Below the pieces are notes generated by a model, which saw nothing but the letters and a program-made list of their open reading frames with translations, was not told the origin of the DNA and ran no database searches. Below, piece after piece: positions 1,987 through 23,144 of a stretch of 24,060 nucleotides of DNA (within the stretch, counting starts at the first letter, position 1; each line of letters starts with the position of its first letter). Both the position numbers and the translations under genes were made by a program. Origin of the DNA: a virus; the IMG/VR virus record IMGVR_UViG_3300042564_007729, positions 1 through 24,060 of that record; one strand, written 5' to 3'.

Positions 1987-3303
1987 TTAATTTTTCTTAC
2001 ATTGAGGACATTTACCTGATGATCTTGTCCTATTGTTTATAAACCCTTGCCATTCATGATTACAATTTTCACATTGCCACCAAACTGATTTACCAGAACT
2101 TCTAGTTACATCAAGCAGGGTAATGCTTATGTTTTTTGTGGGATGCCATTGTTTTGCTATATGCGGATTGGTATATTCTAAAGAGTTTTCTTTAGAAACT
2201 TTTTTACCATCACAATAAGGACACCCTTGATTTTGGTGGTGTCTTGCCATAATAAGAGACTCCCAGGTATGTTCATTGTTTTTTGAACATACCCACCAGG
2301 CTCTTTCTGTTCTAGAACTAGAAAATACATCTTTAGGAGTTTTTCCTCCATTTTTTGTAGGATGCCACTCTTTTGATAATTTAGGGTTTACAACAAATAA
2401 AGAATTTACTTCATTAATATTAAAAGAGCTATTGGAATGACAAGGACACCCTTTCAATCTTCGTCTTTTATCTATAGACATTTCATATTCACTACCATAA
2501 GAACATAACCACCAAACTTTTTTATTTGAGCTACATGTAACATCAAAAGGAGTCAGTTTTCCATTTTTTGTTGCGTGCCATTCTTTTGATAGATTTGGGT
2601 TTTTTACCCCTAAAGACCTACATTTTACACACCCTAAAGTAGCTCTATTTCTTTCATGTGGAGTATCTTGCCATTCATAGCTACAACAATTACACTTCCA
2701 CCAAACAAGTAAACTTGAGTTTGGGCTTATTTTATCAGGTAAAAGTCCGTTGTTTTTTTCATAATTCCACTCTTTGGCTAATGTAGAATTTTTAAACTTT
2801 AAAGAATTTTCATATTGTATCTGTTCACAAAAAGCTATAACTTCAGACCCTATTTCAAACTTATCATAATCAAAATTTTCTATTTTTTCTAACTCTTTAT
2901 CACTAAGAGTAAAGTTGCTTTTCAAAAATTCAATAACAGACTTAAAAGATTCTTTATGGCTTTCTTTTCTATTGTAATTATACTCTATATCATGAGAAAG
3001 AATTTTTTCTAAACCCTTCTCTCTAATTCTAAGCAATGTAATCCCTTTAGATTTACATATTTTGTTTTTTCTTAAATCTTTTTTTTTGTGAAATTCTGAA
3101 GAATGATAAAAAACGCCATCATATTCAATTGCAAAGTTTATGTGGGGGATAAAAATATCAAGCTCAAACTTTATTGGATTTTGAACACAATCAGTAACCT
3201 TTAAAGGATATCTATGTTCAACTTTTTCAAATATTCTTTTTATAAAATACAAAAATCTTATTTCTTCTAAAGATGTGCCTACAATTTTCCTTCTATAACT
3301 CAT
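1987..3303 (-). CDS. Vsr-like PD-(D/E)XK endonuclease with four treble-clef zinc repeats
   Basis: The 438-residue protein has two parts. Residues 1-110 form a very-short-patch-repair/DUF559-type nuclease: FELDIFIPH gives D49, AIEYDGVFYH gives E60, D62 and H67, then K-rich KKKDLRKNK and KGITLLRIRE. Residues about 170-438 hold four tandem repeats of roughly 65 residues. Each starts with a S/N-x-A/S-K-E/Q-W signature, runs through TKNG and WW-x-C, and ends in GC-x-x-C, as in the DUF4379 treble-clef family. Repeats 1 and 4 keep two CxxC pairs; repeats 2 and 3 have lost a cysteine in the first pair. Such proteins are usually DNA-binding nucleases, and a homing or host-DNA-cutting role is possible. 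The gene has its own late-type element and sits between capsid-targeting-type genes. Confidence 0.8.
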   Translation of the reverse strand: MSYRRKIVGTSLEEIRFLYFIKRIFEKVEHRYPLKVTDCVQNPIKFELDIFIPHINFAIEYDGVFYHSSEFHKKKDLRKNKICKSKGITLLRIREKGLEKILSHDIEYNYNRKESHKESFKSVIEFLKSNFTLSDKELEKIENFDYDKFEIGSEVIAFCEQIQYENSLKFKNSTLAKEWNYEKNNGLLPDKISPNSSLLVWWKCNCCSYEWQDTPHERNRATLGCVKCRSLGVKNPNLSKEWHATKNGKLTPFDVTCSSNKKVWWLCSYGSEYEMSIDKRRRLKGCPCHSNSSFNINEVNSLFVVNPKLSKEWHPTKNGGKTPKDVFSSSRTERAWWVCSKNNEHTWESLIMARHHQNQGCPYCDGKKVSKENSLEYTNPHIAKQWHPTKNISITLLDVTRSSGKSVWWQCENCNHEWQGFINNRTRSSGKCPQCKKN

Positions 3304-7112: not shown

Positions 7113-7640
7113 ATGAAAAATTATAATAACAAAAAAACTGAAGAACACAAGATAAACACCAACATTAAAGAATTTGAGGTGAGGTTGGTTGATTTACCTG
7201 AACAGTATGAAAATGGAGTGTACAAAACAGATGTTGCCTTAAGAATAGCAGAGGAAATAGGTTCTGATTTGATTCTTATTTCAGACAAAGCCAAACCTGT
7301 AATATGTAAGATTATGGATTATTCCAAATTTAAGTATGAAAAAAAGAAAAAAGAAAAAGATTTAAAAAAGAAGACTTCCGTTTTAAAAGAATTGAAGTTT
7401 AGTCCTGATATTGCAGAAAACGACTTAGCGATAAAATCAAAAAAGGCAATAGAATTTTTGAATGATGGGAATAAAGTTAGAGTAACTGTTCAATTCAAGG
7501 GAAGGGGAATTGTTTTTAAAGATAGAGGTACAATTGTTTTGCTTAAACTAGCAGAGCTCGCACAAGAAGCTGGTGTTCCAGATTCTATGCCTGAATTAAA
7601 CGGAAAAAGAATGTCTTTCACATTAAAACCTAAAAAATAA
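7113..7640 (+). CDS. infC: Translation initiation factor IF3
   Basis: This is a full-length IF3 of 175 aa, close to the usual size. IF3 binds the 30S subunit, prevents premature 50S joining and checks start codon and initiator tRNA pairing. The N-domain is seen in INTNIKEFEVRLVD and KAKPVICKIMDYSKFKYE, followed by a lysine-rich linker KKKKEKDLKKK. The C-domain follows: KELKFSPDIAENDLAIKSKK, KVRVTVQFKGRGIVFKD, and MPELNGKRMSFTLKPKK. The FKGR-IV-K and LNGKRM forms are closer to Bacteroidota IF3 than to E. coli (FRGREM, EGRQM). It starts with ATG, not the rare start codon that permits autoregulation of cellular infC. It has its own early-type promoter and probably forms a two-gene operon with the HNH-like gene 2 nt downstream. 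The A-rich leader shows no Shine-Dalgarno sequence. Confidence 0.95.
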   Translation: MKNYNNKKTEEHKINTNIKEFEVRLVDLPEQYENGVYKTDVALRIAEEIGSDLILISDKAKPVICKIMDYSKFKYEKKKKEKDLKKKTSVLKELKFSPDIAENDLAIKSKKAIEFLNDGNKVRVTVQFKGRGIVFKDRGTIVLLKLAELAQEAGVPDSMPELNGKRMSFTLKPKK

Positions 7641-10629: not shown

Positions 10630-11535
10630 TTAAGGATTATATTTTTTAGCTAATCTTTTTAACAACTCCAACAATCTATGATCTGGGTAAGAATCAAACT
10701 TGTCTTTTCTACAATTTACGTGCGTCCACAAACCTGCAGTTTTATTTGAAATTAATTCAGGCATATATTTAAACCAAGACATATCAAAATCTTTTTGAAC
10801 AGGTATGTTATAATTTTCAATTAAATACACTAAAAGCTTCTCTAATGTATCCAATTGGGCGTCAGTATATGCATGAAAGTATTTAAAATCCTTGAATGGT
10901 GTTTCTAATTCATATACTTCTTCAGCAGGAATTTCTGTTTTCCAATCATTCGGCCAAGCATAATATTTATCTCCAACTTTTTTAAGTGGACCAAAACAAC
11001 AAATTTCTATACCAATCGATTTTTTATCTAAAGCACCATTTGTTCCTTTTACTCCTAAATGCCAACCCCAATAATCTGGATGAAATGCTTCATATACTTT
11101 TCCATCTTCACCATCTATTACATAAGCAGTGGCTATTTTTATTTCATCACCTGCCCAATAACCTATTGTCTTTTCAGCACTTTTTCTTCCAGCAGTAAAA
11201 TGTATAAATATTTTATCTTTGTCTGTTTTTTGTTTTACGTATTGGGAAACATCTAATGGATGAGTTTTAACAATCTCTAAATTTCCGTAAACCTTTGGTG
11301 TAATTCTTCCCTTATCTTCTTTTGAAGTTCTCTTTTGAGCAGCTTTTAAAGCTTCCAATGTTTTAAATCCAACGATTCCATCTGTTTCTAAGTTGACTTT
11401 TTTCTGAAAAGCCTTTATTGATCTTAATGTTCTATCTCCAAAATGACCATCAACGATTAAATCATACCCTAAAAAAGATAAGTACTTTTGAACTTCTGAA
11501 ACTTTTGAATTGATGTCTCCGTATTTTAAACTCAT
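10630..11535 (-). CDS. Endolysin: peptidoglycan-binding domain plus N-acetylmuramoyl-L-alanine amidase
   Basis: The 301-residue enzyme is expected to cut the amide bond between muramic acid and the stem peptide for host lysis. Residues 5-65 are a PG_binding_1 domain, with the usual VSEVQKYLSFLGYDLIVDG, FGDRTLRSIKAFQKK and LETDGIVGFKTLEAL motifs. Residues about 107-295 are an Amidase_2 zinc domain: IHFTAG gives H112, the substrate-side GWHLGVKG lies at about 157-164, and THVNCRKDKFDSYPDH gives H272, K279 and D281. There is no signal peptide, so a holin would be needed; none is identified with confidence here. A late-type element sits 16 nt before the start, consistent with late expression. Confidence 0.92.
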   Translation of the reverse strand: MSLKYGDINSKVSEVQKYLSFLGYDLIVDGHFGDRTLRSIKAFQKKVNLETDGIVGFKTLEALKAAQKRTSKEDKGRITPKVYGNLEIVKTHPLDVSQYVKQKTDKDKIFIHFTAGRKSAEKTIGYWAGDEIKIATAYVIDGEDGKVYEAFHPDYWGWHLGVKGTNGALDKKSIGIEICCFGPLKKVGDKYYAWPNDWKTEIPAEEVYELETPFKDFKYFHAYTDAQLDTLEKLLVYLIENYNIPVQKDFDMSWFKYMPELISNKTAGLWTHVNCRKDKFDSYPDHRLLELLKRLAKKYNP

Positions 11536-11551
11536 AAAAAAATAATTTTTC

Positions 11552-11560
11552 TATAAATAG
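11552..11560 (-). promoter_or_regulatory. Late-type promoter element CTATTTATA for endolysin
   Basis: An exact minus-strand CTATTTATA lies 16 nt before the ATG of the endolysin gene. It is back-to-back with the plus-strand early-type promoters of the 11703 gene, forming a divergent control region. Confidence 0.5.
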
Positions 11561-11584
11561 TTCATAAAAAGTGTTTCATAAATA

Positions 11585-11614
11585 TTGTAAACTTTTGATT
11601 TTACTTGCGTATAT
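11585..11614 (+). promoter_or_regulatory. Early-type promoter, upstream copy (TTGTAAA-N15-GCGTATAT)
   Basis: TTGTAAA at 11585-11591 and GCGTATAT at 11607-11614 are spaced by 15 nt, matching the consensus with one change in each box. It is the first of two tandem copies before the 11703 gene. The surrounding 65 bp is repeated at 12721-12785. Confidence 0.55.
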
Positions 11615-11632
11615 TATAAATTATTATACAAT

Positions 11633-11662
11633 ATGTAACTTTTTATTAAACATATCGTATAA
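11633..11662 (+). promoter_or_regulatory. Early-type promoter, downstream copy (ATGTAAC-N15-TCGTATAA)
   Basis: ATGTAAC at 11633-11639 and TCGTATAA at 11655-11662 are again spaced by 15 nt, with one change in each box. It lies 41 nt before the ATG of the 11703 gene, 48 nt downstream of the first copy, so the gene may have two start sites. Confidence 0.5.
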
Positions 11663-11702
11663 TGATTTATAAAGATTATTTAAATCTATAAATATAATTA
11701 TT

Positions 11703-12155
11703 ATGAAAATTACTTATATAAAATCTAAAGATACAGAAACAATTAACGTTCCTGAATTAAAGGAGAAAGTTGGCAATATTTTAAATAAATATTTAGATGA
11801 TAAAAATGAATTATTATTTGACTCTTATGTTGCTGGCAATAGAATAGAAGGTGTTAGTGAAGAGGCTTTCTTATTTATGGATGAAGAAACTACTAATAAT
11901 TTAATCAATTGCTATAGAGATTACAATCTTTTAATTGAATATAAAGATATTACACATGAAGTTAAAACAGAAAGCTGTGATTTAGAAGAATTTAAAAACA
12001 TTTTTTACCATAACAAACAAAGTGAATGTAATATTATTTTACTTAACAATTTCTTAAAAAGAAATATGACTTATGATGATGTTTTAGATAAAATTTCAAT
12101 ACATGGTTATGATTATTTAAATGAACATGAAAAAAAAATACTCTCTAATATATAA
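11703..12155 (+). CDS. Small early-type protein with DUF6576-like C-terminus, 150 aa
   Basis: The first 120 residues of this 150-residue soluble, acidic protein are not recognised. The C-terminal 28 residues (YDDVLDKISIHGYDYLNEHE, then KKILSNI) match the pattern I-L-D-K-I-x3-G-x2-S-L-x3-E-x3-L. That pattern is known from the C-terminal DUF6576 tail of Bacteroidota rhomboid proteases and some other proteins, and it points to a Bacteroidota host. Two tandem early-type promoters precede the gene, and its stop codon lies in the left arm of a strong bidirectional terminator. It forms the plus half of the first convergent cassette. A host-interaction role is possible but unproven. Confidence 0.6.
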   Translation: MKITYIKSKDTETINVPELKEKVGNILNKYLDDKNELLFDSYVAGNRIEGVSEEAFLFMDEETTNNLINCYRDYNLLIEYKDITHEVKTESCDLEEFKNIFYHNKQSECNIILLNNFLKRNMTYDDVLDKISIHGYDYLNEHEKKILSNI

Positions 12156-12190
12156 AAAAGCCCAACTATTATTTAGTTGGGCTTTTTTAT
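12152..12190. terminator. Strong bidirectional terminator, cassette 1
   Basis: A perfect 17-bp inverted repeat (12152-12168 with 12174-12190) has a 5-nt loop; its core is GCCCAACTA / TAGTTGGGC, flanked by A6 and T6. It starts within the stop codon of the plus-strand 11703 gene and ends 12 nt before the stop of the minus-strand 12203-12700 gene. It can therefore end both convergent transcripts. Confidence 0.9.
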
Positions 12191-12202
12191 ATTAATTATA
12201 TA

Positions 12203-12700
12203 TTAACCTTTTTTACCTCCAGTAATATTAGCTTCACCGCTATATACTGTTGAATCTTGGAAATAACCCGCTGTTCCATCTGGCGCTTTTAATTCTGGAT
12301 TCCAATTAGAATATTTAGCAGATGGATTATAACCGTAATAAATTAAATATTTAGGTTTTTGTTCTGCTGTCATTTTATTGTATATATTAGATTTAGCTCC
12401 TTTTAAAGCTGGATCTGTAATTACAGCTATACCCTTCGTTCTTGCTTCCGCATCATTAGTTGGATTTATTTTTAAATCTTCTCTACGAGCAATTTCTTTA
12501 GGTGTTAATTCTTCTTTTTTTCCAAAACCAAAAATCTCTTCTAATTCTTCTGTTTCTTCTGTATCTTCTGTATACATCTCCTGAAGTCTACTAAGAAGTT
12601 TTTTCTTTTCAGCCTCTAGAGTCAATTTCTTTTTAAATCTAGCAGCTTCCTCAGAGATAATTTCTCTAAGTCTAGATTCTGATATGATTTCTTTTTTCAT
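12203..12700 (-). CDS. Capsid-targeted cargo-like protein 1, 165 aa
   Basis: Residues 1-46 are almost the same as in the proteins at 13198-14037 and 14516-14971: an amphipathic segment with I-I-S-E-S-R-L-R-E-I-I-S-E-E, a basic KKKLTLEAEKKK stretch, and L-Q-E at 39-41. L/I-x-E is the cleavage preference of T4-type prohead protease, so the leader is likely a capsid-targeting peptide. The rest is unrelated to the other two: an acidic linker (TEETEELEEIFGFGKKEEL), then a glycine- and tyrosine-rich domain (KYLIYYGYNPSAKYSNWNP) with no motif that I know. It has a late-type element 21 nt upstream and a bidirectional terminator after its stop. It is probably packaged in the head and perhaps ejected. 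Confidence 0.65.
   Translation of the reverse strand: MKKEIISESRLREIISEEAARFKKKLTLEAEKKKLLSRLQEMYTEDTEETEELEEIFGFGKKEELTPKEIARREDLKINPTNDAEARTKGIAVITDPALKGAKSNIYNKMTAEQKPKYLIYYGYNPSAKYSNWNPELKAPDGTAGYFQDSTVYSGEANITGGKKG
12564..12700 (-). repeat. 137-bp repeated leader-coding module, copy 1
   Basis: This encodes the first ~45 residues of the 12203-12700 protein. By eye it differs at about 14 of 137 positions from copy 3 (14835-14971), without gaps. Similarity stops abruptly where the cargo domain begins. Confidence 0.85.
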
Positions 12701-12721
12701 AGGTTTTATTTTTTATTTTAT

Positions 12722-12730
12722 TATAAATAG
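12722..12730 (-). promoter_or_regulatory. Late-type promoter element CTATTTATA, cassette 1 cargo gene
   Basis: An exact minus-strand CTATTTATA lies 21 nt before the ATG of the 12203-12700 gene. It is the minus-strand half of a divergent control region shared with the plus-strand 12805 gene. Confidence 0.5.
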
Positions 12731-12753
12731 TTTATAAAAAGTGTTTTATATTA

Positions 12754-12783
12754 TTGTAACCTTTTGAATTTAATTGCGTATAA
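12754..12783 (+). promoter_or_regulatory. Early-type promoter TTGTAAC-N15-GCGTATAA, cassette 2
   Basis: Exact consensus boxes at 12754-12760 and 12776-12783 are spaced by 15 nt. The promoter lies 21 nt before the ATG of the 12805 gene. Confidence 0.7.
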
Positions 12784-12804
12784 GATGATATAAAAACAAA
12801 TATT

Positions 12805-13170
12805 ATGGAAAATATTAGCCAAGAAGAATTTAATGAAGGTTTGAGAGCTTATAAAAACGTTTCTACCGAAGAAGTCGAGAAGATAAATAAAAAATTTAAA
12901 CTTATTTTGTTTTTATATAACAAAAACATATTGTTTATATTACTTTGGTTTTCAGTAATGTTACCTGCTTTTTTTCTATACATATTTGCTGGTGTAAATT
13001 ATATAACAAACCTATTTGCCTCGTTTATGTTTGTGATTTACCCAATAATATTCTTTTGTATTAAAAAAACAATATTTAAATATAGTGAAATAGAAGATGA
13101 ATACTTTAGAAGGAAAGTTCATATTTTTGAATACGTTTTAAAAGATAGAAAAGAAAAAAGGGCTGAATAG
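12805..13170 (+). CDS. Small early-type membrane protein, 121 aa, two TM segments
   Basis: The protein has an acidic soluble N-terminus (residues 1-30), two hydrophobic segments at about 41-61 and 65-87, and a charged C-terminal helix (EIEDEYFRRKVHIFEYVLKDRKEK). This predicts a hairpin in the host inner membrane with both ends in the cytoplasm. It has its own early-type promoter, and its stop codon is within a terminator hairpin. The 14142-14480 protein has the same architecture without clear sequence similarity. Early phage membrane proteins of this kind are often superinfection-exclusion or host-takeover factors. A holin is less likely given early-type control and length. Family not recognised. 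Confidence 0.6.
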   Translation: MENISQEEFNEGLRAYKNVSTEEVEKINKKFKLILFLYNKNILFILLWFSVMLPAFFLYIFAGVNYITNLFASFMFVIYPIIFFCIKKTIFKYSEIEDEYFRRKVHIFEYVLKDRKEKRAE

Positions 13171-13185
13171 CCCCTTTATTTTTTT
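13154..13185. terminator. Bidirectional terminator, cassette 2
   Basis: The stem GGGCT (13160-13164) with AGCCC (13169-13173) and loop GAAT is flanked by an A run on the left and a T run on the right. The plus-strand stop codon TAG (13168-13170) is part of the hairpin. The minus-strand 13198-14037 gene ends 12 nt beyond, and the A run (13154-13159) provides its T tract. Confidence 0.7.
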
Positions 13186-13197
13186 ATGTGATTCCAA

Positions 13198-14037
13198 TTA
13201 TTTTGACCTTGGAATGCTTAACATATCTTTTACTGTATCTAGAAAACCAAGTCTTTGATCAGCAGCAAGTAATCCTTGAATACCCGCTTTATCAGCTATT
13301 CCGTTTAGATATTTATCTATTTGCTGTATTACTAAACCTTTAGCTCTAGCATCTGCAGCTTGTTTAAATTGATTTACATATGTCAAAAGATTTTGATCTT
13401 TAACAGTATTAGCAGCTAATTCGATATAACCTTTTTTAACTTTTTTAGCCCCTACTATAAGTTTAATTATTCCCAATACAAATGTAAGTGCAGCTGAATA
13501 GACAAGTGGGTTTGCTAACAAAAACCCACCTGGAATTGCACCAGTAGCTACAGCCCATCCAATTCCAGCTAATATAATACCTACAACAGAAGACCCAAGT
13601 CCAAGACCTTTTAGTATTTTACCGAATCTAATTTTAAATTCACCAATATTTTCTTTAACAGTTTGCCCATCTTCTTCATTTAAACCATATTCTTTTAATA
13701 TGTTTTGAGCGACAGTAGCAGCTTGTTTTGCTTCTCCTGCAGGATTGCTAATCGCATCTTGAGCTTCTGAATCTTGACTGACAGCTTGAGCAACTTGATC
13801 TGGAGTCATTTTTATAGCAGCTAAAAAACCTTGAACGTCGGCTTCTGTAGCTGGTCTTACTTTAACAGACTCAGCTCCTTCTTCCGCTTCATCCATCATT
13901 TCCTCCATATACATTTCATTAAGTCTATTAAGAAGTTTTTTCTTTTCAGCTTCTAGAGTTAATTTCTTTTTAAACCTAGTAGCTTCTTCAGAAATAATTT
14001 CTCTTAATCTAGATTCTGATATAATTTCTTTTGCCAT
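13198..14037 (-). CDS. Capsid-targeted cargo-like protein 2 with membrane hairpin, 279 aa
   Basis: Residues 1-46 are the shared leader, with L-N-E at 39-41 as the likely prohead protease site. An acidic linker (MMDEAEEGAESVKV) follows, then an alanine/glutamine-rich helical region to about 130. Two hydrophobic segments lie at about 148-166 (VVGIILAGIGWAVATGAIPG) and 176-196 (NPLVYSAALTFVLGIIKLIV), followed by a basic KKVKKG and a helical tail to the C-terminus. A protein with both a packaging leader and a membrane hairpin would suit an internal head protein that acts in the host membrane after ejection; that is inference. A late-type element lies 20 nt upstream, and the downstream terminator is shared with the convergent 12805 gene. 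Confidence 0.65.
   Translation of the reverse strand: MAKEIISESRLREIISEEATRFKKKLTLEAEKKKLLNRLNEMYMEEMMDEAEEGAESVKVRPATEADVQGFLAAIKMTPDQVAQAVSQDSEAQDAISNPAGEAKQAATVAQNILKEYGLNEEDGQTVKENIGEFKIRFGKILKGLGLGSSVVGIILAGIGWAVATGAIPGGFLLANPLVYSAALTFVLGIIKLIVGAKKVKKGYIELAANTVKDQNLLTYVNQFKQAADARAKGLVIQQIDKYLNGIADKAGIQGLLAADQRLGFLDTVKDMLSIPRSK
13901..14037 (-). repeat. 137-bp repeated leader-coding module, copy 2
   Basis: This encodes the leader of the 13198-14037 protein. By eye it differs from copy 3 (14835-14971) at about 6 of 137 positions with no gaps, several at synonymous sites. Similarity ends at the start of the acidic linker. Confidence 0.85.
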
Positions 14038-14057
14038 TGATTTTGTTTTTAATTTCT

Positions 14058-14066
14058 TATAAATAT
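14058..14066 (-). promoter_or_regulatory. Late-type promoter element ATATTTATA, cassette 2 cargo gene
   Basis: Minus-strand ATATTTATA, with the extended form CATATTTATAAG, lies 20 nt before the ATG of the 13198-14037 gene. The same extended form precedes the 14516-14971 gene. Confidence 0.5.
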
Positions 14067-14084
14067 GAAAAAAATTAAAAATCT

Positions 14085-14114
14085 TTGTAACATATTTATA
14101 TTTATAGCGTATAA
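14085..14114 (+). promoter_or_regulatory. Early-type promoter TTGTAAC-N15-GCGTATAA, cassette 3
   Basis: Exact consensus boxes at 14085-14091 and 14107-14114 are spaced by 15 nt. The promoter lies 27 nt before the ATG of the 14142 gene. Outside the boxes this control region is less similar to the two earlier ones, so the motif is conserved beyond simple duplication. Confidence 0.7.
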
Positions 14115-14141
14115 TGTAGTATAAACATAAATTGATATATT

Positions 14142-14480
14142 ATGAATAGTTTAACCTCTGAAATGAAAGAAGAACAAGAAAAACAAAGAAAAGAGAAATT
14201 GGAACTTATTAAAAAGTTTCAAGAAAAATTGAAGTTTTCAGTGGTTAGCCTTGTATTCTTTATTATACTAACTGGATATACATTATTTGTTCCAATTATA
14301 TTTATAGGTGCTATTTTACCTATTTTATTTGGAGCTACCTCTATTATTTTTATTCAACAAATAATTCGTTCTTATAACTACCTTGAATTTTATAAAAATA
14401 ATTATAGTTTTATGGAAAGCGTATATAATATAGTGGAACAAGGAAATGAAATAGAACAAAAAAAAGAGCAACTAAATTAG
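14142..14480 (+). CDS. Small early-type membrane protein, 112 aa, two TM segments
   Basis: The N-terminal 30 residues are a highly charged helix (KEEQEKQRKEKLELIKKFQE). Two hydrophobic segments follow at about 32-50 and 51-73, then a cytoplasmic-type helical tail ending in QKKEQLN. The layout matches the 12805-13170 protein, suggesting a similar place in the membrane, but sequence similarity is not evident. It has its own early-type promoter, and its stop codon lies in a terminator stem. Function unknown; superinfection exclusion or host membrane modification would fit. Confidence 0.6.
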   Translation: MNSLTSEMKEEQEKQRKEKLELIKKFQEKLKFSVVSLVFFIILTGYTLFVPIIFIGAILPILFGATSIIFIQQIIRSYNYLEFYKNNYSFMESVYNIVEQGNEIEQKKEQLN

Positions 14481-14495
14481 CTGCTCTTTTTTTTT
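14458..14495. terminator. Bidirectional terminator, cassette 3
   Basis: The 10-bp stem with one mismatch (14465-14474 with 14478-14487) has the loop AAT. It is preceded by an eight-A run and followed by a nine-T run. The plus-strand stop codon TAG (14478-14480) is in the stem. The minus-strand 14516-14971 gene ends about 20 nt away and can use the A run as its T tract. Confidence 0.85.
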
Positions 14496-14515
14496 ATATC
14501 TAAAGACTTAAATTT

Positions 14516-14971
14516 TTATTCTGCTCCTCCGCCAAAATTATGACCTCCAGCAAGTGACCCTTTAGCGCTTGCACCAAACTGTTGAAGTTTAGTAAGTTGT
14601 GGTTTAAAAGATAAAACTAAAAATGTCTTTTTTGAATTTGGTGCCAAACGAAGTTCTCCTTTAAAAGGGATACTTGCTTTTTCAGCCTGCCTCATTATTT
14701 CTTCTTTAGAAGGCTTAATCTCCCAACCTTTAGGAGCTTTTACTAATACAGCATCTAATTCTTTTTCAAAAGTTTGTTTGTTAGCTGATATTTCTGCTTT
14801 GCTAGGACCAAACAAACCCTCTTCAAGAGAATCTTCCTCCATATACATCTCATTCAGTCTATTAAGAAGTTTTTTCTTTTCAGCTTCTAGAGTTAATTTC
14901 TTTTTAAACCTAGCAGCTTCCTCAGAAATAATTTCTCTAAGTCTAGATTCTGATATAATTTCTTTTGCCAT
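14516..14971 (-). CDS. Capsid-targeted cargo-like protein 3, 151 aa
   Basis: Residues 1-46 are the shared leader, with L-N-E at 39-41. After a short acidic linker (EEDSLEEGLFGPSK) comes a compact alpha/beta-looking domain of about 70 residues (LDAVLVKAPKGWEIKPSKEE, FKGELRLAPNSKKTFLVLSF). A glycine-rich tail follows (GASAKGSLAGGHNFGGGAE). The EEGLFG segment resembles EEIFGFGKK at the same place in cargo protein 1. I cannot identify the domain. A late-type element lies 19 nt upstream, and the terminator after its stop is shared with the convergent 14142 gene. Likely a packaged internal head protein. Confidence 0.65.
   Translation of the reverse strand: MAKEIISESRLREIISEEAARFKKKLTLEAEKKKLLNRLNEMYMEEDSLEEGLFGPSKAEISANKQTFEKELDAVLVKAPKGWEIKPSKEEIMRQAEKASIPFKGELRLAPNSKKTFLVLSFKPQLTKLQQFGASAKGSLAGGHNFGGGAE
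14835..14971 (-). repeat. 137-bp repeated leader-coding module, copy 3
   Basis: This encodes the leader of the 14516-14971 protein and is the closest to a consensus of the three copies (about 6 differences from copy 2 and 14 from copy 1). Confidence 0.85.
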
Positions 14972-14990
14972 AGCCTTTGTTTTATTTTCT

Positions 14991-14999
14991 TATAAATAT
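14991..14999 (-). promoter_or_regulatory. Late-type promoter element ATATTTATA, cassette 3 cargo gene
   Basis: Minus-strand ATATTTATA in the context CATATTTATAAG lies 19 nt before the ATG of the 14516-14971 gene. There is no divergent plus-strand promoter here; the next gene upstream is the SNF2 helicase on the same strand. Confidence 0.5.
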
Positions 15000-15044: not shown

Positions 15045-16979
15045 TTATTGGTTTTTTATTTTTTCAATCAAAGCCTTTAGCATATTATAATCCCCTGTAT
15101 GAACTTTTTTATCCACCCTTTTGTTGTCTAAAACCATAGTTACTACTTGGTCTTTTTCATCTAAAAACTCCATTATATCTTCATCTATAGTCCCAGAACA
15201 ATATAAAGTAATAATTTGAATATTGTCGTGAGTTGTTGATGCTCTGTGAATTCTATCTTCGGCCTGCATCATATCTCCAGGCGTCCATCCAAAACCTAAA
15301 AAAATCAAACGACTTGCCTCTGTAAGACTTATTCCAACTCCAGAAGCCATAATCATACCTGAGAAAATTTTGATGTCTTTATTTTTTTGAAAACTTTGGT
15401 ATGATTCAAACTTATCATTCTCGCTCATAGATCCAGTATGTAGAACTGATATTTTTGGAAATAGTTTATGCACTTCTTCGGCAAGTTCTTGCAAGTCTGA
15501 CATAATTACAACTTTTTCACCACCATCAATTATGTCTTGAATGTAATCTACAGCTCTTTTTAGCTTGCATCTACCTGTAAACAATTTTAGTTTTGCAATT
15601 TTTGCCAAATAAGATTCTTCTGTAGACTTTCCGTCTTTATCTTCTTTTTTGAAAGATTTTATAATTTGTTCGTATTCTTTATACTCAGCATCCGTTAATT
15701 CGATTGGAACATTAGTATATGTTTTAGGAGGTAAATCCTTCAATACATCTTTTTTCAACCTTCTTAAGAACACCCCTGATATTCTAGTGAACAATTGTTC
15801 TAAGTTAGATACGCCACTATAATCCCAACCAAAGCCAGTATCATATCCAGCGCAATACTTAACGCCAAACTCATGTTGATTATTCCACTCGTCTTTATTC
15901 AGAAAGTTCAAAGAAGTAAAAAACTCAGAAGGTCTACTTTTAATTGCTGTTCCTGAAATTAAAATCTTTCTAGGAACAACATCCCTAAAAGCACGCACAA
16001 TTACTTGTGTCCATCCCGTCTTCTTTTCTTTGATTCTGTGCGACTCATCAATTACAATCAAATCATAGTCTTCAGGGTTTAAATACTCTCCAAAACCATC
16101 TTCGAAATATTGCAAGGAATGAAATGTTGACTTAAATGTTTTTTTGTTTTTACATTGAGGACATTCTGTTTGAGTCTTGTTTAGGTTTATTATTTCACAA
16201 CCACACTCTGTCATACCATTTCCAGCGGTTTTAACCATCTTGCCCTTACACTTATGTTTATATTCAATTTTAATGTAGCTATCTAAAGATTCATAGTTTA
16301 TAACATGAAAAAGTGATTCATCTTTTTTATAAGCCACATCTTTACTTCTTTTTTTGGGAACATATTTGTAGACAAACGCTTTCTCATTTGTGAAGTCATC
16401 AATCTCTTTTCTCCAATTAAGCTTTAGGGAAGATGGGCATATAACAAGTGTTTTATATTTATGCTTTACAGCGTAAGAAATAGCAGACAAGGTTTTTCCG
16501 ACACCTGGTTGATCTCCGAGTATTGCCCTTCCATCATTTATTTCGAAAAACTTTACTGCTTGTTTTTGATAATTATATGGTTGTTGTTTTAAGAAAGAAT
16601 AATCTTCATTTTCAACACTTAATTGTTCAGCTTTAAGTCTTAATATTTCCGCAAGCCTTTTCTGCCTATCTAAATATTCCTGTCTTAATTTATTTATGTC
16701 GTCCTCTGGTACATTTTGAAATGTGAACGGGATTCCGTTATCAACCATAAAGTTAATTACGTTTCCCATTGCATATTCACGGACAGATCTTACCCATTCA
16801 TCTTTTTCTACACCATCGGCATTTATTATAGAATCTTTTCTAGTAGTTCTGTGTTCTTTAGGAAGTGACTTTATGAACTCGGACAACATTTTATTAAAAT
16901 CATATCTAAGTTCATAATTCGCCTTCAACTTTCTTATGTTTACAGGGTTCTTTTGTGAATCTGATTGTTTCTTTGCCAT
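15045..16979 (-). CDS. SNF2-family DNA helicase/translocase with zinc insertion
   Basis: The 644-residue protein is an ATP-driven double-strand DNA translocase of the SNF2/SMARCAL1 type; phage relatives are thought to act in fork remodelling or recombination. The Q-motif-like NYQKQAVKFF (136-145) precedes Walker A GDQPGVGKT (155-163). Motif Ia is LVICPSSLKLNW, motif II DESH (311-314) and motif III SGT (342-344). Motif V is ASGVGISLTEA (about 545-555), and motif VI QAEDRIHR (572-579) carries the arginine finger. A zinc-binding insertion lies between motifs Ia and II (C244, C259, C261, C273, C276). The N-terminal 120 residues are basic and helical. It leads into the histone-like, unknown and Cas4-like genes upstream with 1-3 nt spacing, forming one replication/repair operon. 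Confidence 0.93.
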   Translation of the reverse strand: MAKKQSDSQKNPVNIRKLKANYELRYDFNKMLSEFIKSLPKEHRTTRKDSIINADGVEKDEWVRSVREYAMGNVINFMVDNGIPFTFQNVPEDDINKLRQEYLDRQKRLAEILRLKAEQLSVENEDYSFLKQQPYNYQKQAVKFFEINDGRAILGDQPGVGKTLSAISYAVKHKYKTLVICPSSLKLNWRKEIDDFTNEKAFVYKYVPKKRSKDVAYKKDESLFHVINYESLDSYIKIEYKHKCKGKMVKTAGNGMTECGCEIINLNKTQTECPQCKNKKTFKSTFHSLQYFEDGFGEYLNPEDYDLIVIDESHRIKEKKTGWTQVIVRAFRDVVPRKILISGTAIKSRPSEFFTSLNFLNKDEWNNQHEFGVKYCAGYDTGFGWDYSGVSNLEQLFTRISGVFLRRLKKDVLKDLPPKTYTNVPIELTDAEYKEYEQIIKSFKKEDKDGKSTEESYLAKIAKLKLFTGRCKLKRAVDYIQDIIDGGEKVVIMSDLQELAEEVHKLFPKISVLHTGSMSENDKFESYQSFQKNKDIKIFSGMIMASGVGISLTEASRLIFLGFGWTPGDMMQAEDRIHRASTTHDNIQIITLYCSGTIDEDIMEFLDEKDQVVTMVLDNKRVDKKVHTGDYNMLKALIEKIKNQ

Positions 16980-17731: not shown

Positions 17732-18643
17732 TTATTTTTTATATTCTATTAATAATTTTTTATGTTGTTTATCAGAAGAATCACACATTGGATGCTTTCC
17801 GCCTTTAAGTGGACAAAGCATACAGCCCATTCTTTCACTCATTGTAAACTTCACCTTTGGAAATTTTTTTTCTATATGAATCATACGAATTGACTTAGCT
17901 AGTTTCTCAAGTGAATATTTTATTTCATCCTCGCTTGAATTTATATCCACTGTTTGTATATTTCCAGGATAAGAGTTGGGATCCTTCTTTTTTCTCAATC
18001 TATTCAATACAACATATGAACAATCTACATTACTCAAAGCTATGTTATTTTTTTTAGACCAAAAGAATTTATAAAATCTCATTTGACATAAAAATATTTC
18101 ATCTTTTTTCTTTTTCTTTACATCCCAATCTTCACCTGATGTTTTCCAATCCAAAATCTTATATCTTTTTGTGGTCTTATGTTTTAAAACCAAATCTATA
18201 AAACCTTTAAAAAAATACCTTGAAAAAATATTTTCATACAAAGGTTCTTCAACTGAAACTAAATCATATTCATCTAGTATCTTATTTAAATCCAAAAATT
18301 TTAATATATTCTCTCCTTGTATAAGAAAATGATGAAAGTTTAATTTGTAATCATTCGTATCTTTCATATTATCCATCATATCTTTGGAGAATGAAGCTTT
18401 GAAATAGTCTATTCTTTGATTTATTGACCACTTCTCTTTGAGAGATAATTCTATAGATGAGTGAATTGCATTACCAAAAAAAAGATGAATTGACAATGGT
18501 TGTTGCAAGATGCCCAAATGCTTTTCAAGCAAATGCCTGTGACCACATTGATTAAATAAAGAAAATTCACTAAAGCTTATATGCCTTCTATTTGTGTTTT
18601 CTTTTTTTATATCATTTTTATCTATTACTTTTTCTATTACCAT
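17732..18643 (-). CDS. Cas4/RecB-type PD-(D/E)XK nuclease with probable Fe-S cluster
   Basis: The 303-residue protein shows the full Cas4/AddB-type nuclease plan. SFSEFSLFNQC carries C33, GNAIHSSIE H61, VEEPL E132/E133, FKGFID D150, LDWKTSG D165 and K167, and QMRFYKF Q187 and Y191. The C-terminus has GCMLCPLKGGKHPMC with C274, C277 and C287. Together with C33 these give the four cysteines typical of a 4Fe-4S cluster holding the two ends of the fold together. It likely acts as a single-strand DNA exonuclease in replication or recombination, in the same operon as the SNF2 helicase and near the Mre11-Rad50 gene. The start ATG is preceded by TATATTTG only 6 nt away, an unusually short leader if that is its promoter. 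Confidence 0.88.
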   Translation of the reverse strand: MVIEKVIDKNDIKKENTNRRHISFSEFSLFNQCGHRHLLEKHLGILQQPLSIHLFFGNAIHSSIELSLKEKWSINQRIDYFKASFSKDMMDNMKDTNDYKLNFHHFLIQGENILKFLDLNKILDEYDLVSVEEPLYENIFSRYFFKGFIDLVLKHKTTKRYKILDWKTSGEDWDVKKKKKDEIFLCQMRFYKFFWSKKNNIALSNVDCSYVVLNRLRKKKDPNSYPGNIQTVDINSSEDEIKYSLEKLAKSIRMIHIEKKFPKVKFTMSERMGCMLCPLKGGKHPMCDSSDKQHKKLLIEYKK

Positions 18644-19255: not shown

Positions 19256-19689
19256 ATAATCAATAATTTTTCTGCTTTACCTTTTATGCTTTCTAAATTT
19301 GCAGAACAAGAAGTATAGCCTAACTTTGACCCTTCTGATAAAAAAGATTTATTTTTTACATATAAATTATATATTGAAAATCCTCTTTTTATTTCAAAAA
19401 TAAGCATATTTTTTACAAATCCTTTTAGCAGTCCGTTATTGACTATTTCCCATCTTATTTTGTCTCCTTTTTTAAGAGCATCTTCAATTGTTTTTATTTT
19501 TTTTTGCTCTTGCGCTTTTCTTTGATTATCTCTAATCTTTCTATCTACAATTGATTGAATGGCTTGGCGCTGAAGCATTTCTTTTTCATACGCCTCCATT
19601 CTAATTTTTAAAGCTCTTTCTTCTGCAGCTCTTTTTATGAACTCGGAAGGATTTTCTTCTATTGGGTTATCTTCGTATTCGTCTTGCAT
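19252..19689 (-). CDS. Hypothetical protein, 145 aa, coiled-coil plus small domain
   Basis: I do not recognise this 145-residue protein. The first ~80 residues are a long charged helix likely to form a coiled coil (RAAEERALKIRMEAYEKEML, RKIRDNQRKAQEQKK). The C-terminal 65 residues look like a small beta-rich domain (DKIRWEIVNNGLLKGFVKNM, FSIYNLYVKNKSF). Its ATG shares one base with the stop of the Mre11-Rad50 gene (position 19689), so translation is coupled. It may be an accessory subunit of that nuclease or simply a downstream operon member. Confidence 0.55.
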   Translation of the reverse strand: MQDEYEDNPIEENPSEFIKRAAEERALKIRMEAYEKEMLQRQAIQSIVDRKIRDNQRKAQEQKKIKTIEDALKKGDKIRWEIVNNGLLKGFVKNMLIFEIKRGFSIYNLYVKNKSFLSEGSKLGYTSCSANLESIKGKAEKLLII

Positions 19690-22600
19690 TATGATATAGA
19701 TAAAGTTGTCACACCTGCTTCAGGATTTGATTCTAAAACTTCTTGAGGAATACCTTTCTTTATTTTTGTTACCTCTATAATATTATCAGCAAAGTCCTTA
19801 ATTTCATTTTTGTGAGTGACAAAAATTACAGTCTTATGTTTACTCTTTAAATATTGTAAAATATTTACAATCTCTAAAGAAAGTCTGCCACTTAACGTAC
19901 CAAACCCTTCATCTATAATAGACATAGATGGTTTTGTAAGTGTGCTAATAAAATGTAAAGCATCCTTAATTGCTATTGATGCTACAAATTTTTGTGCCCC
20001 AGAAGAAAATTGTAAAGGAAGAGAATCTGACTTATCTTCACTGTAATAGAAATACTCAAATATATCTCCATTAGGAAGAATGTCTAATTCAACTTTAAAC
20101 TCTACAATTTGTTGTAATATAGAATTTATCTTACTGTTTATTATAGGAAGTTTTTTTCTAATAATTAAAGCAGGAATTCCATCTCTATGCATAGCTTGTA
20201 AATAAATTGAATATTTTTTAAACATTCTCTCTACTTCTTTTATAGAATCTAATTTTTCTGAGTTTATTTTTATATCAGACTCCAAAACTCTAATATCTCC
20301 ATATACTTCAGTAATACTTTTATCTATACCATATAGTGTTAATTTATATGCCTTTATAAGTTCACTTTGTGAATCTATATATTCTTGAATAGATTTGTTT
20401 TTACTTTCTTTTTGTTTGTTTTCAGAAATCTTCAATAAATTCTCACTTAATGTTTCTATGTTTTTTTCCGCTTGTGACTTTACTGATCTACCCTTTTCTA
20501 ATCTAGAAGAATTGTCTTCAACTTTTTTATTGTGCTCTATAATTTCTTTCATAGATTCAAAAAGAGATAACCTATCTTTAAGTAAGTCTATTTTTTCCTT
20601 TCTATTTTTTAACGAATCGGCAATATTATTCTTTTTTTCAGTCTGACCATCAATTGCTAAATTTTGCTTTGTGATATCATTATAAGAATTTATGCTACCT
20701 TGCAAAGTGGCAATTTCTTCTTTTTTTAATTCTATACTAGCCAAACATTCTTTTTCTTTTTCTGGATCCGCCTTTTGTTGAATGTTTCCGCAAGTCGGAC
20801 AAGATTTACCACGAAGTGTTGGAAGTTGATTTTGCAAACCTGTTACTTCTTCTCTAAGTGATATTATTTTTTCATCTAAACCGTCAATGTTAGGTAAATA
20901 TTTTTTTACATTTTCTTTTAACCAAGAATCTATTTTTACATAATCATCTTTTTCTGTCTTAAAAACAGATTGTACGGATGTTAGCTCTTTTGATACACTT
21001 TCTTCTGTTTCGCCTTCTTTAAATGGTAATTCTTTTTTGAAATTTACAGATAACCATTCTTCAAGCTCCTTAATAGCATTATTGTATTTATCTATATTTT
21101 CCCCTTCTTGCTTAAGTAAATTATTTACCACAGAAGAATCGCTATATTTTAATTGTTCTATTTTTTCTAACTTCTTAGTTTGTTCTAGAACGTCAGTTTC
21201 TATATTTTCTTTGTTTTTTGAAACCTCTTCTTTGTCTAACTTCAATCTTTCAAGCATAATATCTTTTTCTGATTTATCTTTTTCTAAATCAGTAAGCTTT
21301 AATTCGATTTCTAATTTAGCTCCAATTTCTTTTTGCTTCTTTTTTATCTCCTTAAAATACTCATTAGCATATTCATAACGCATTTTATATGCCTCTAATC
21401 CTAAATACCTACTTATTAATGAGTTTTTAGGTTGTTGACTTTGATTTATATAATCATCCTTACCTCCTTGAACCTGTAGTGTTACTTTTGTAAAATCATC
21501 CACATCTCCAATAGCTTCTTCAACCAAACTTTCAACCTCTCTTTTCTCCGCTGTTGCTTTGTCTGATTTTTCATTCTCCCAAGACTCACTTTCTAAGTCA
21601 CCATCACCATCATAACCTAGTTCTAAAGATTGATATTTTATACCATATGAATTTGATATCTTTCCGTCTTTATGTTTAGTTGTTTTTACAGTACGATGAA
21701 TCTTAAATTTTTTGCCATCTATATTTAAATAAACAGTTACATATCCTTGGTTAGATTCTGTATATAAATTAACAAGGAACTTAGGGTCACCTCCACCCAA
21801 TATTTCCTTATAAAGACCCCAAACAATTGCTTTAATTACATTAGACTTACCGTTATAGTTTTCTCCAAATAACCCAGTAATACCATTAAGTGAATTAAAG
21901 TCGATAATTGTCGGCTTAATTGGAAAAGAAAAAATATTGCTTATTTCTATTTTTTCCATATACCACGAACTACCAGTTTTATCTTCATGTTCATTTATAC
22001 CAAGCTCTTGATTAATTTGAGCATTTAACTTTAAGATATCGACAATCTCATCATTATCACAATCAAATGTACCATCAGCAATAAATTCTTTAATATATTC
22101 TTCACTTTGTTTTCTTGGATCTTCTTCAGCCTCATCATCAACAAGAATATCTTTAGCAACAAAAGAGTGTTCCACTTTTACGATTTCACACCCATGAAGC
22201 TCCTTTATTTGTCTTGCAACTTGGTTTTCTCTTTCTTGGGAAAAATTTTCTTCTAATTCCTCAATAATAATATGAACTCTAGTTTTCTTTTTATTATGAC
22301 TAAATCTCAAATGAGTTAACCTATCTTCTATATTTTCACCTCGTGCAATTACAAGCTTAGAAAAACCATAATCATTTGGAACAAATTTTCTAACGTGAGA
22401 ATTCGTATCTGTATCCCACAACAAATAGCCTTTATCTATAGATTCTCCATAATTCTGTTGTAACAAACTACCTGAATACGCAACAGAAGCGTCATCTCTA
22501 AAACTTTGATATTCATGTATGTCTCCGAGCATTACAATGTCGAAATCCTTAAACGTACTCAAACGCATTAAATTGTCGCCCTTTTGTTCATATCCATTAT

Positions 22601-23144
22601 CCCCTCTTGCGCCATAAACGGTTCCATGGTATAATGCTATATACTTCTTTTTATCCTTCTTTTTCGAAAACTCTAAAATCTCATTATCTTTACAAGAAAA
22701 AACTCCATAAACAACACCATTGCCTATATCATAAAAACCGCTATCTGGAAAATAATATACAGCATTTTTACTGTAATCAATTTTATCTTTATTTTCATCA
22801 GTAACAATGAAAGCAGTCTTATCTCCATCCTTTTCAAACATACTACCCAACTTGAATATTGGTGAAATGGCATCACCTTGCTCAAGCTGTTGCAAGTTTA
22901 AATCGTGATTTCCTAATATTACATCAGTTGGTGCTATTTTTGATAAATTCAAAAGAAGCTCTGCTAATAATTCAAATGAATTTGGCGACATATTAATTTT
23001 ATGATGTACCAAATCACCCCCAAGAAAAATTCTATCAGGTTTTTGTATTTTTAAATCATCATAAAGTCTTTGAAATACTTGTCTATATTCGTCGTGTCTA
23101 GATCCAAAACGTATTTGAACATCCGCAATGTGTGCAATTTTCAT
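19689..23144 (-). CDS. Fused Mre11-Rad50 (SbcD-SbcC; T4 gp47-gp46) nuclease-ATPase
   Basis: A single 1151-residue protein carries both subunits of the recombination nuclease that processes DNA ends. The metallophosphoesterase part has HIADVQIR (D8, with Q10 where His is usual), GGDLVHHK (D44), LGNHD (79-81), LYHG (H173) and LGDIHEYQ (D208, H210). After an acidic linker (about 335-390), the Rad50 part begins at about 396 with MEKIEISNIFSF. It has Walker A GENYNGKS (427-434), a long coiled coil broken by the zinc hook SCPTC (C782, C785), the signature QFSSGAQKFVASIA, Walker B SIIDEGFGTLSG and a His switch VIFVTHK. Its ATG overlaps the primase TGA (ATGA). These enzymes are normally two genes, as in T4 and E. 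coli. It would act in recombination-dependent replication and end processing. Confidence 0.95.
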   Translation of the reverse strand: MKIAHIADVQIRFGSRHDEYRQVFQRLYDDLKIQKPDRIFLGGDLVHHKINMSPNSFELLAELLLNLSKIAPTDVILGNHDLNLQQLEQGDAISPIFKLGSMFEKDGDKTAFIVTDENKDKIDYSKNAVYYFPDSGFYDIGNGVVYGVFSCKDNEILEFSKKKDKKKYIALYHGTVYGARGDNGYEQKGDNLMRLSTFKDFDIVMLGDIHEYQSFRDDASVAYSGSLLQQNYGESIDKGYLLWDTDTNSHVRKFVPNDYGFSKLVIARGENIEDRLTHLRFSHNKKKTRVHIIIEELEENFSQERENQVARQIKELHGCEIVKVEHSFVAKDILVDDEAEEDPRKQSEEYIKEFIADGTFDCDNDEIVDILKLNAQINQELGINEHEDKTGSSWYMEKIEISNIFSFPIKPTIIDFNSLNGITGLFGENYNGKSNVIKAIVWGLYKEILGGGDPKFLVNLYTESNQGYVTVYLNIDGKKFKIHRTVKTTKHKDGKISNSYGIKYQSLELGYDGDGDLESESWENEKSDKATAEKREVESLVEEAIGDVDDFTKVTLQVQGGKDDYINQSQQPKNSLISRYLGLEAYKMRYEYANEYFKEIKKKQKEIGAKLEIELKLTDLEKDKSEKDIMLERLKLDKEEVSKNKENIETDVLEQTKKLEKIEQLKYSDSSVVNNLLKQEGENIDKYNNAIKELEEWLSVNFKKELPFKEGETEESVSKELTSVQSVFKTEKDDYVKIDSWLKENVKKYLPNIDGLDEKIISLREEVTGLQNQLPTLRGKSCPTCGNIQQKADPEKEKECLASIELKKEEIATLQGSINSYNDITKQNLAIDGQTEKKNNIADSLKNRKEKIDLLKDRLSLFESMKEIIEHNKKVEDNSSRLEKGRSVKSQAEKNIETLSENLLKISENKQKESKNKSIQEYIDSQSELIKAYKLTLYGIDKSITEVYGDIRVLESDIKINSEKLDSIKEVERMFKKYSIYLQAMHRDGIPALIIRKKLPIINSKINSILQQIVEFKVELDILPNGDIFEYFYYSEDKSDSLPLQFSSGAQKFVASIAIKDALHFISTLTKPSMSIIDEGFGTLSGRLSLEIVNILQYLKSKHKTVIFVTHKNEIKDFADNIIEVTKIKKGIPQEVLESNPEAGVTTLSIS

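Follow-up and report, generated by a model that had tools for sequence, protein, structure and literature searches.

The window analyzed here comprises the entire virus record IMGVR_UViG_3300042564_007729 of IMG/VR (24,060 bases), which is a fragment, judging by its gene content. Between 11.5 and 15.0 kb it carries an array of three units of opposing genes, flanked by an endolysin gene and an SNF2-type helicase gene. Every unit, or cassette, combines a plus-strand gene, a hairpin over the stop codon of that gene and a convergent minus-strand gene, an organization that had been described in an earlier note on this DNA and that was recovered in full. The minus-strand genes encode proteins with a common N-terminal leader followed by a 'cargo' part, and the opposing plus-strand genes are referred to as their partners. 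The features of the array and its direct neighbours are given below, with lengths in amino acids (aa) and nucleotides (nt).

10630..11535, minus strand: endolysin with peptidoglycan-binding and amidase domains (Pfam PG_binding_1, 1.3e-15; Amidase_2, 4.4e-13), the fixed downstream neighbour, which adjoins the array in relatives as well
11545..11634: divergent control region between the endolysin gene and plus-strand gene 1; first repeat copy bounding cassette 1
11552-11559, minus strand: putative late element in this control region
11587-11613, plus strand: early-type element before plus-strand gene 1
11703..12155, plus strand: plus-strand gene 1, 150 aa, without hydrophobic segment; weak match to DUF6576 below the cut-off
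12150..12192: putative bidirectional hairpin terminator over the stop of plus-strand gene 1, with perfect arms of 19 nt (z -5.9 on the plus and -7.8 on the minus strand)
12203..12700, minus strand: leader-cargo gene 1, 165 aa, cargo family alpha
12563..12700, minus strand: leader-coding repeat copy 1, 89% identical to copy 3
12715..12803: divergent control region, second repeat copy bounding cassette 1 (87% over 69 nt to the first copy)
12722-12729, minus strand: putative late element in the control region before plus-strand gene 2
12756-12782, plus strand: early-type element before plus-strand gene 2
12805..13170, plus strand: plus-strand gene 2, 121 aa, with hydrophobic segments
13150..13186: putative hairpin terminator over the stop of plus-strand gene 2, the weakest of the three (z -1.7 plus, -2.2 minus)
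13198..14037, minus strand: leader-cargo gene 2, 279 aa, cargo family gamma, with a hydrophobic stretch at residues ~141-191
13900..14037, minus strand: leader-coding repeat copy 2, 98% identical to copy 3
14058..14113: divergent control region before plus-strand gene 3
14058-14065, minus strand: putative late element in this control region
14087-14113, plus strand: early-type element before plus-strand gene 3
14142..14480, plus strand: plus-strand gene 3, 112 aa, with a hydrophobic segment
14456..14497: putative bidirectional hairpin terminator over the stop of plus-strand gene 3 (z -5.3 plus, -7.0 minus)
14516..14971, minus strand: leader-cargo gene 3, 151 aa, cargo family beta
14831..14971, minus strand: leader-coding repeat copy 3, with LREIISE at aa 11-17, LNE at 39-41 and LEE at 49-51
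14991..14998, minus strand: late-type element TATTTATA of leader gene 3
15045..16979, minus strand: SNF2-type helicase (Pfam SNF2-rel_dom, 2.9e-30), the fixed upstream neighbour of the array

Over their first 46 aa the three leader proteins of the window are 87-98% identical. The leader DNA is 86-96% identical (96% between units 2 and 3, 86-89% for unit 1) and the repeat reaches 165 nt at an identity of 82-85%. The leaders had been called near-identical, a description that suits units 2 and 3 and is too strong for unit 1. From residue 51 onward no significant similarity was found among the three proteins (best BLASTP E 0.016, 39 aa), which bears out the claim that the cargo differs from unit to unit while the leader is kept.

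Relatives were collected from IMG/VR in scans with the helicase (74 loci) and the endolysin (22 loci). Scans with leader profiles yielded 3 and 7 loci, every one of them at this same locus. In total 49 records were gone through, and the counts on cargo, motifs, charge and exchange are based on 26 leader proteins from 23 records. Left out were the apparent duplicates (L038, L045, L082 and L119), two records without a cassette (L039 and L040), two contig ends (L041 and L050), one record without the helicase (L120) and 17 records of a more distant helicase group (~45-47% identity), for which no leader gene was found beside the helicase among the matches listed. A leader-like protein of 611 aa that is encoded elsewhere in record L063 was not counted, and the leader genes of L046 and L047 are cut by the contig end. 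Nine leader genes have no listed partner: L046, L047, L059, L061 and L076 run into the contig end, the partner in L048 and L068 was left unassigned, the opposite-strand gene of L053 lies on the other side of the leader gene, and in L077 no opposite-strand partner of at least 45 aa was found. In the lineage nearest to the window, the interval between helicase and endolysin contains no cassette in L039 and L040, one in most records, two in L037 and three in the window and the near-identical L038. On basis of BLASTP and profile comparison the cargos were grouped into alpha, beta/epsilon (hhalign probability 83%), gamma, delta and singletons.

Leader identity was found to track helicase identity over 23 loci (rho 0.66; none of 300 permutations gave a value as high). 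Unrelated cargos of the window carry leaders with an identity of 80-92% (~50 aligned residues). When the window is compared with phages whose helicases are 55-60% identical, leaders on cargos of one and the same family (alpha or beta/epsilon) show an identity of 30-44%. On the evidence of the sequences, the leader is tied to the phage lineage, with cargo and partner changing behind and beside it. The close pair L043/L044 shares leader (85%), helicase (82%) and endolysin (72%) and has unrelated partners, with no significant similarity between the cargos (best E 0.083 over 23 aa); in L009/L049 the leader (88%), helicase (78%) and endolysin (80%) likewise accompany unrelated cargos and partners. 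Turnover of cassettes between related genomes, which the earlier note had itself proposed as a test, is apparent from both the variable cassette number (0-3) and the swap of cargo and partner in these pairs.

The putative divergent early/late promoter regions form direct repeats at the unit borders, and recombination between these repeats, and within the leader, would add, remove or swap cassettes. In the window, cassette 1 is flanked by two such regions (69 nt at 87%), and L037, which is without cassette 1, has a single copy that is a hybrid of the two. At the ungapped sites where the window's copies differ, the left part of the L037 copy agrees with the endolysin-side copy (10/10) and the right part with the other copy (12/15), as expected from recombination between repeats. 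Because E-values for short AT-rich stretches mislead (56 of 200 shuffles of one promoter stretch reached BLAST E < 1e-3), only similarities of 8e-21 or better were used, together with the hybrid pattern. In L037, L009 and L078 a gene of 291-296 aa lies between the helicase gene and the first cassette, on the strand opposite to the helicase. It holds the same position in three lineages, its L037 copy has a DUF4379 treble-clef domain, and it is possibly a homing endonuclease that uses this site.

Two kinds of promoter-like elements can be discerned in the array. GTAA-N16-GCGTATA has four copies in the window, all on the plus strand, which precede the three partner genes and a phage-encoded gene for translation initiation factor IF-3 (7113-7640, plus strand; both domains, E 1e-22 and 1e-25). 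The chance expectation is 0.01 and none of 100 shuffles reached four copies. In relatives, a slightly looser form of this early motif was found at 8 of 19 loci, one of them nearly identical to the window, and in all cases its strand was opposite to that of the helicase; the other 11 were without it. The second element, TATTTATA, lies on the coding strand of the leader genes. It starts 22-42 nt before the ATG of 8 of the 31 open reading frames (ORFs) of the window, versus 0 of 31 for its reverse complement TATAAATA, the form of the T4 late motif, and in the 372-kb relative G006 the former precedes 49 of 453 ORFs and the latter 4. The T4-type TATAAATA was rejected as late element; a late-type element had been noted before the leader genes, and it is indeed present, be it in the reverse-complement form. 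In G006, TATTTATA or a one-base variant precedes the genes for the major capsid protein, a scaffold-like protein, the prohead protease and the endolysin, as well as a gene that we take for the tail sheath. Considering that it is common to the capsid, prohead protease and endolysin genes, TATTTATA is read as the late promoter of the lineage. The pattern TATTTAT[AT] was found at most 50 nt upstream of 23 of the 26 leader ORFs. A Sigma-70 scan of the region was uninformative (25 sites versus 26.4 in shuffles). In the G006 contig (L018-L036), ATTTGCTTTATA-like 7-mers lie upstream of ~40 of 453 genes where ~1 is expected, and perhaps represent another promoter class.

A hairpin between the two stops was present in all 17 cassettes with a following opposite-strand gene, the window's three included, and in 15 of these A and T runs occur on both sides. 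The exceptions are L055 and the middle hairpin of the window (13150-13186), which is terminator-like on both strands and in the stricter check does not have the A/T runs on both sides. With these two in the set, a two-way terminator in every cassette was rejected. Across the whole inter-stop stretch z varies from -0.2 to -9.8 among cassettes.

The leader resembles the targeting sequence of the T4 internal proteins. IPII and IPIII of T4 start with MKTYQEFIAE. According to PMC9026906, residues 4 and 7 are involved in targeting and residues 8 and 10 in processing, and gp21 cleavage follows L/I-x-E. The residue spacing of the leader core LREIISE is equal to that of YQEFIAE, and the generalized core, hydrophobic-x-x-hydrophobic-[IVL]-x-E, was found in 26/26 leaders (~0.11 expected per shuffled sequence). 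LNE or a variant forms a second site at the end of most leaders, and a third site, [LIMV][DE]E, precedes the folded domain in 26/26 (8.3 expected from shuffled linkers, with the linker window placed by hand for L048, L051 and L053); in 18/26 the next two positions hold a hydrophobic residue and one of F, L or G, where 0.8 would be expected. Summed over the leader proteins, the first 60 aa contain 109 [LI]xE sites versus 63 +/- 6 after shuffling. The mature end had been placed after residue 41; a site (LNE or LQE) is present there, but a second one near residues 50-55, at 51, 50 and 55 in window genes 3, 2 and 1, is at least as good a candidate. With the predicted cut placed at the final [LIMV][DE]E upstream of residue 80 (by hand in L053; two of the 26 proteins are truncated by contig ends), the mature parts are net positive in 23/26, and T4 internal proteins minus 10 residues have an isoelectric point of 7.9-9.7. 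AlphaFold2 (6 and 7 sequences) predicted the leader to be one helix; in the alpha model a helix (8-45) is followed by a low-confidence linker and a folded domain. The alpha and beta models reached a predicted template modelling score of 0.42 and 0.47, and gave no Foldseek match to the PDB at E <= 0.001.

Among the G006 proteins the core pattern occurs in 18/453 of the first 25 residues versus 26/1748 later stretches (p 0.0015), a modest enrichment with residues 101-125 nearly as high (10/299). For Flavobacterium phage immuto these numbers are 12/213 and 11/768 (p 0.001). Several immuto proteins (NC_055915.1, L125-L128; at 1803, 103806 and 118632) have near-identical N-termini of the LKKFLVEN type, which perhaps represent another tag family; a literature search for proteomics of this phage found none. 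In L048 (9973-10815) the leader module is duplicated in tandem within one protein.

The relatives G006 and G010 have a leader gene at this locus and, in addition, encode T4-type gp21 (S77 protease) and gp23. In both major capsid proteins an LNE is aligned with the cleavage site of T4 gp23, within a gap-rich stretch. Deposited phages gave no match to the DNA of the whole window nor to the protein of plus-strand gene 3, and 50,697 phage records gave none to the leader (E limit 1) or to leader genes 1-3 and the L044 gene (E limit 0.1). Family libraries matched the cassette proteins only weakly and inconsistently. Homology of the leader genes to known internal proteins or to any deposited phage protein was not detected in these searches.

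We read the minus-strand genes as internal head proteins of a T4-type jumbo phage, carried in an array of recombining cassettes, and assign a probability of roughly 0.77 to this reading. The shared leader, predicted to be one helix, would be a capsid-targeting propeptide that docks the protein into the prohead scaffold core. A gp21-type protease would cut at L/I-x-E-like sites, namely after IISE, after LNE and finally after the [LIMV][DE]E before the folded domain, upon which the small basic protein would stay with the DNA and presumably enter the next host by ejection, to act there as a first-response factor. The leader genes would be transcribed late from TATTTATA-type promoters and the convergent partner from the different, early-type element, the terminator between the two stops separating the transcripts. 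The earlier note had proposed capsid-targeted cargo, and in its favor are the late class, the T4-like core, the L/I-x-E-type sites and the head genes in two relatives, all of them features of sequence.

Several observations weigh against the genes being internal head proteins. In the window and 19 relatives (24-372 kb), gp21 and gp23 were matched in only 2 of 20 records; the window holds no head genes, and four of the negative records exceed 100 kb. The window and the 17 other negative records are probably mostly fragments. The leader-core pattern was in part picked after the sequences had been seen, and the per-sequence motif counts are not independent, because the leaders are homologous. Three predicted mature parts are not net positive, and the gamma cargo has a hydrophobic stretch. 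Finally, a full leader module is located at the C terminus of L053 10469-11107 and weak leader-like modules (domain E 0.04 and 0.11) lie internally in two G006 proteins, neither of which is predicted by a removable N-terminal propeptide. The duplicated module of L048 does not fit well either. Given that T4 Alt is processed at both ends (PMC9026906), a C-terminal tag is not unthinkable. The displaced modules and the prediction of the leader as a long helix would also suit an unremoved helix that docks to another partner (tail, baseplate or an intracellular phage compartment), with the L/I-x-E sites as a by-product of an acidic amphipathic helix. We consider this unlikely, as the E is retained both at the end of the leader and in the linker site amid variation of the surrounding residues, the capsid protein has the same LNE at the T4 cleavage position, and the charge split favors removal of the leader.

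The near-identity of the leader DNA within a genome and the recombination of cassettes could be taken to mean that the leader is a mere recombination-prone repeat, or a multimerization helix, with cargo acquired by random capture and no role in targeting. Yet the protein pattern is kept across lineages at low identity and on unrelated cargos, making this explanation very improbable. A role as lysis accessories, co-regulated with the adjacent endolysin, would account for the location of the leader genes, their endolysin-like late-type element and the hydrophobic segments in 4/26 cargos and 13/17 partners. It is very unlikely, however, considering that a simple hydropathy scan found no hydrophobic segment in 22/26 cargos, that the cargo families are unrelated and replaceable, and that the interval from helicase to endolysin is devoid of cassettes in L039 and L040.

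In the same kind of scan 13 of the 17 partners showed a hydrophobic segment. The partner changes in close pairs whenever the cargo changes, and the beta partner (plus-strand gene 3 type) was found only beside beta cargo (4/4 records found, two near-identical). These data are suggestive only of a specific pairing of cargo and partner, because alpha cargos carry several different partners and L009/L079 combine related cargos (E 1.5e-4) with unrelated partners; in addition, an exchange of the entire block between leader and endolysin would leave nearly the same pattern. Each cassette might be one exchangeable unit of a virion-delivered cargo and an early-made partner, often a membrane protein, that antagonizes, relays or limits the cargo, for example in superinfection exclusion or self-protection, where cargo and partner are replaced as a block and the tag stays with the phage. 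The pair L009/L079 speaks slightly against this proposal, which we regard as rather doubtful. The host takeover function that had been ascribed to the plus-strand genes was not substantiated, the sole pointers to it being a promoter-like element unlike the late one and the hydrophobic segment in most partners.

The T4 proteins IPI, IPII, IPIII and Alt, with their capsid-targeting sequence (CTS), are likewise unrelated, small and mostly basic proteins under a common N-terminal tag. They share with the array the core spacing (YQEFIAE/LREIISE), the L/I-x-E sites and the T4-type gp21 and gp23, the latter as present in two relatives, and the T4 gene order ipII-ipIII-e, with internal-protein genes beside the lysozyme gene, parallels the position beside the endolysin gene. 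In its predicted properties the array fits the testable features of the T4 system, except for detectable homology to known members. In contrast to the CTS of ~10 aa, the leader spans ~41-55 aa and has several candidate sites; the leaders within a genome are alike, each cargo has a convergent partner gene with a promoter-like element of another type, and 0-3 cassettes occur at one locus, with no match to any deposited phage. Relative to T4, the distinguishing traits are the long leader with its multiple sites, the convergent partner genes, the borders formed by promoter repeats and a copy number that varies.

In T4-type phages, mobile regulatory cassettes termed PeSL have reportedly been described by Arbiol in 2010 and Comeau in 2014. 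In a PeSL, an early promoter immediately adjoins a stem-loop, and the two are located between tandem genes. In the array, the border is a divergent early/late promoter repeat, and the stem-loop is separated from the promoter, being situated between the convergent stops. PeSL-like features are nevertheless present in the repeated divergent promoters, the hairpins (17/17) and the cassette number (0-3), and in PMC4503421 promoter and stem-loop modules at gene borders are likewise linked to gene shuffling. Inner head proteins of phiKZ and SPN3US resemble the leader proteins in having longer propeptides with several sites, and gp53 and gp54 have an identical N-terminus; they belong to another phage group with another cleavage motif, and an exchangeable array is not described in the accessible part of PMC5694885. 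The first 30 residues of P1 DarB send a reporter to the capsid, but DarB is a large anti-restriction protein and the part of PMC9024508 at hand describes no cassette array. Our literature search found no description of such an array.

The nearest deposited matches of the G006 capsid protein include Flavobacterium phage immuto (42.5% over 61%), an uncultured 484-kb phage (43.8%), a Microcystis phage (42.0%) and Rhodothermus phage RM378 (29% over 97%). Since these are mixed, a host among the Bacteroidota is only a guess. Upstream of a PD-(D/E)XK nuclease gene in the window (17732-18643, minus strand) lies TATATTTG, which resembles the Bacteroidota -7 box and is a weak hint at the host. A 1151-aa protein (19689-23144, minus strand) has SbcD-like and SbcC-like parts, seemingly fused; among deposited sequences, two records of uncultured 735-kb phages match it best over its full length (26% identity). 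The gene at 1987-3303 (minus strand, 438 aa) contains four DUF4379 treble-clef repeats with weak nuclease-like matches and has a late-type element upstream.

If the minus-strand genes indeed encode internal head proteins, the 'common tag, variable cargo' rule of T4 would reach an uncultured jumbo phage lineage, in the form of an array that is countable and swappable. The combination of leader, L-x-E, FG start and late element would then be a signature for spotting injected proteins whose function is unknown, and the leader would be a candidate tag for packaging proteins in phages distant from T4. The cargo families, finally, would be candidate first-strike factors against host defences.

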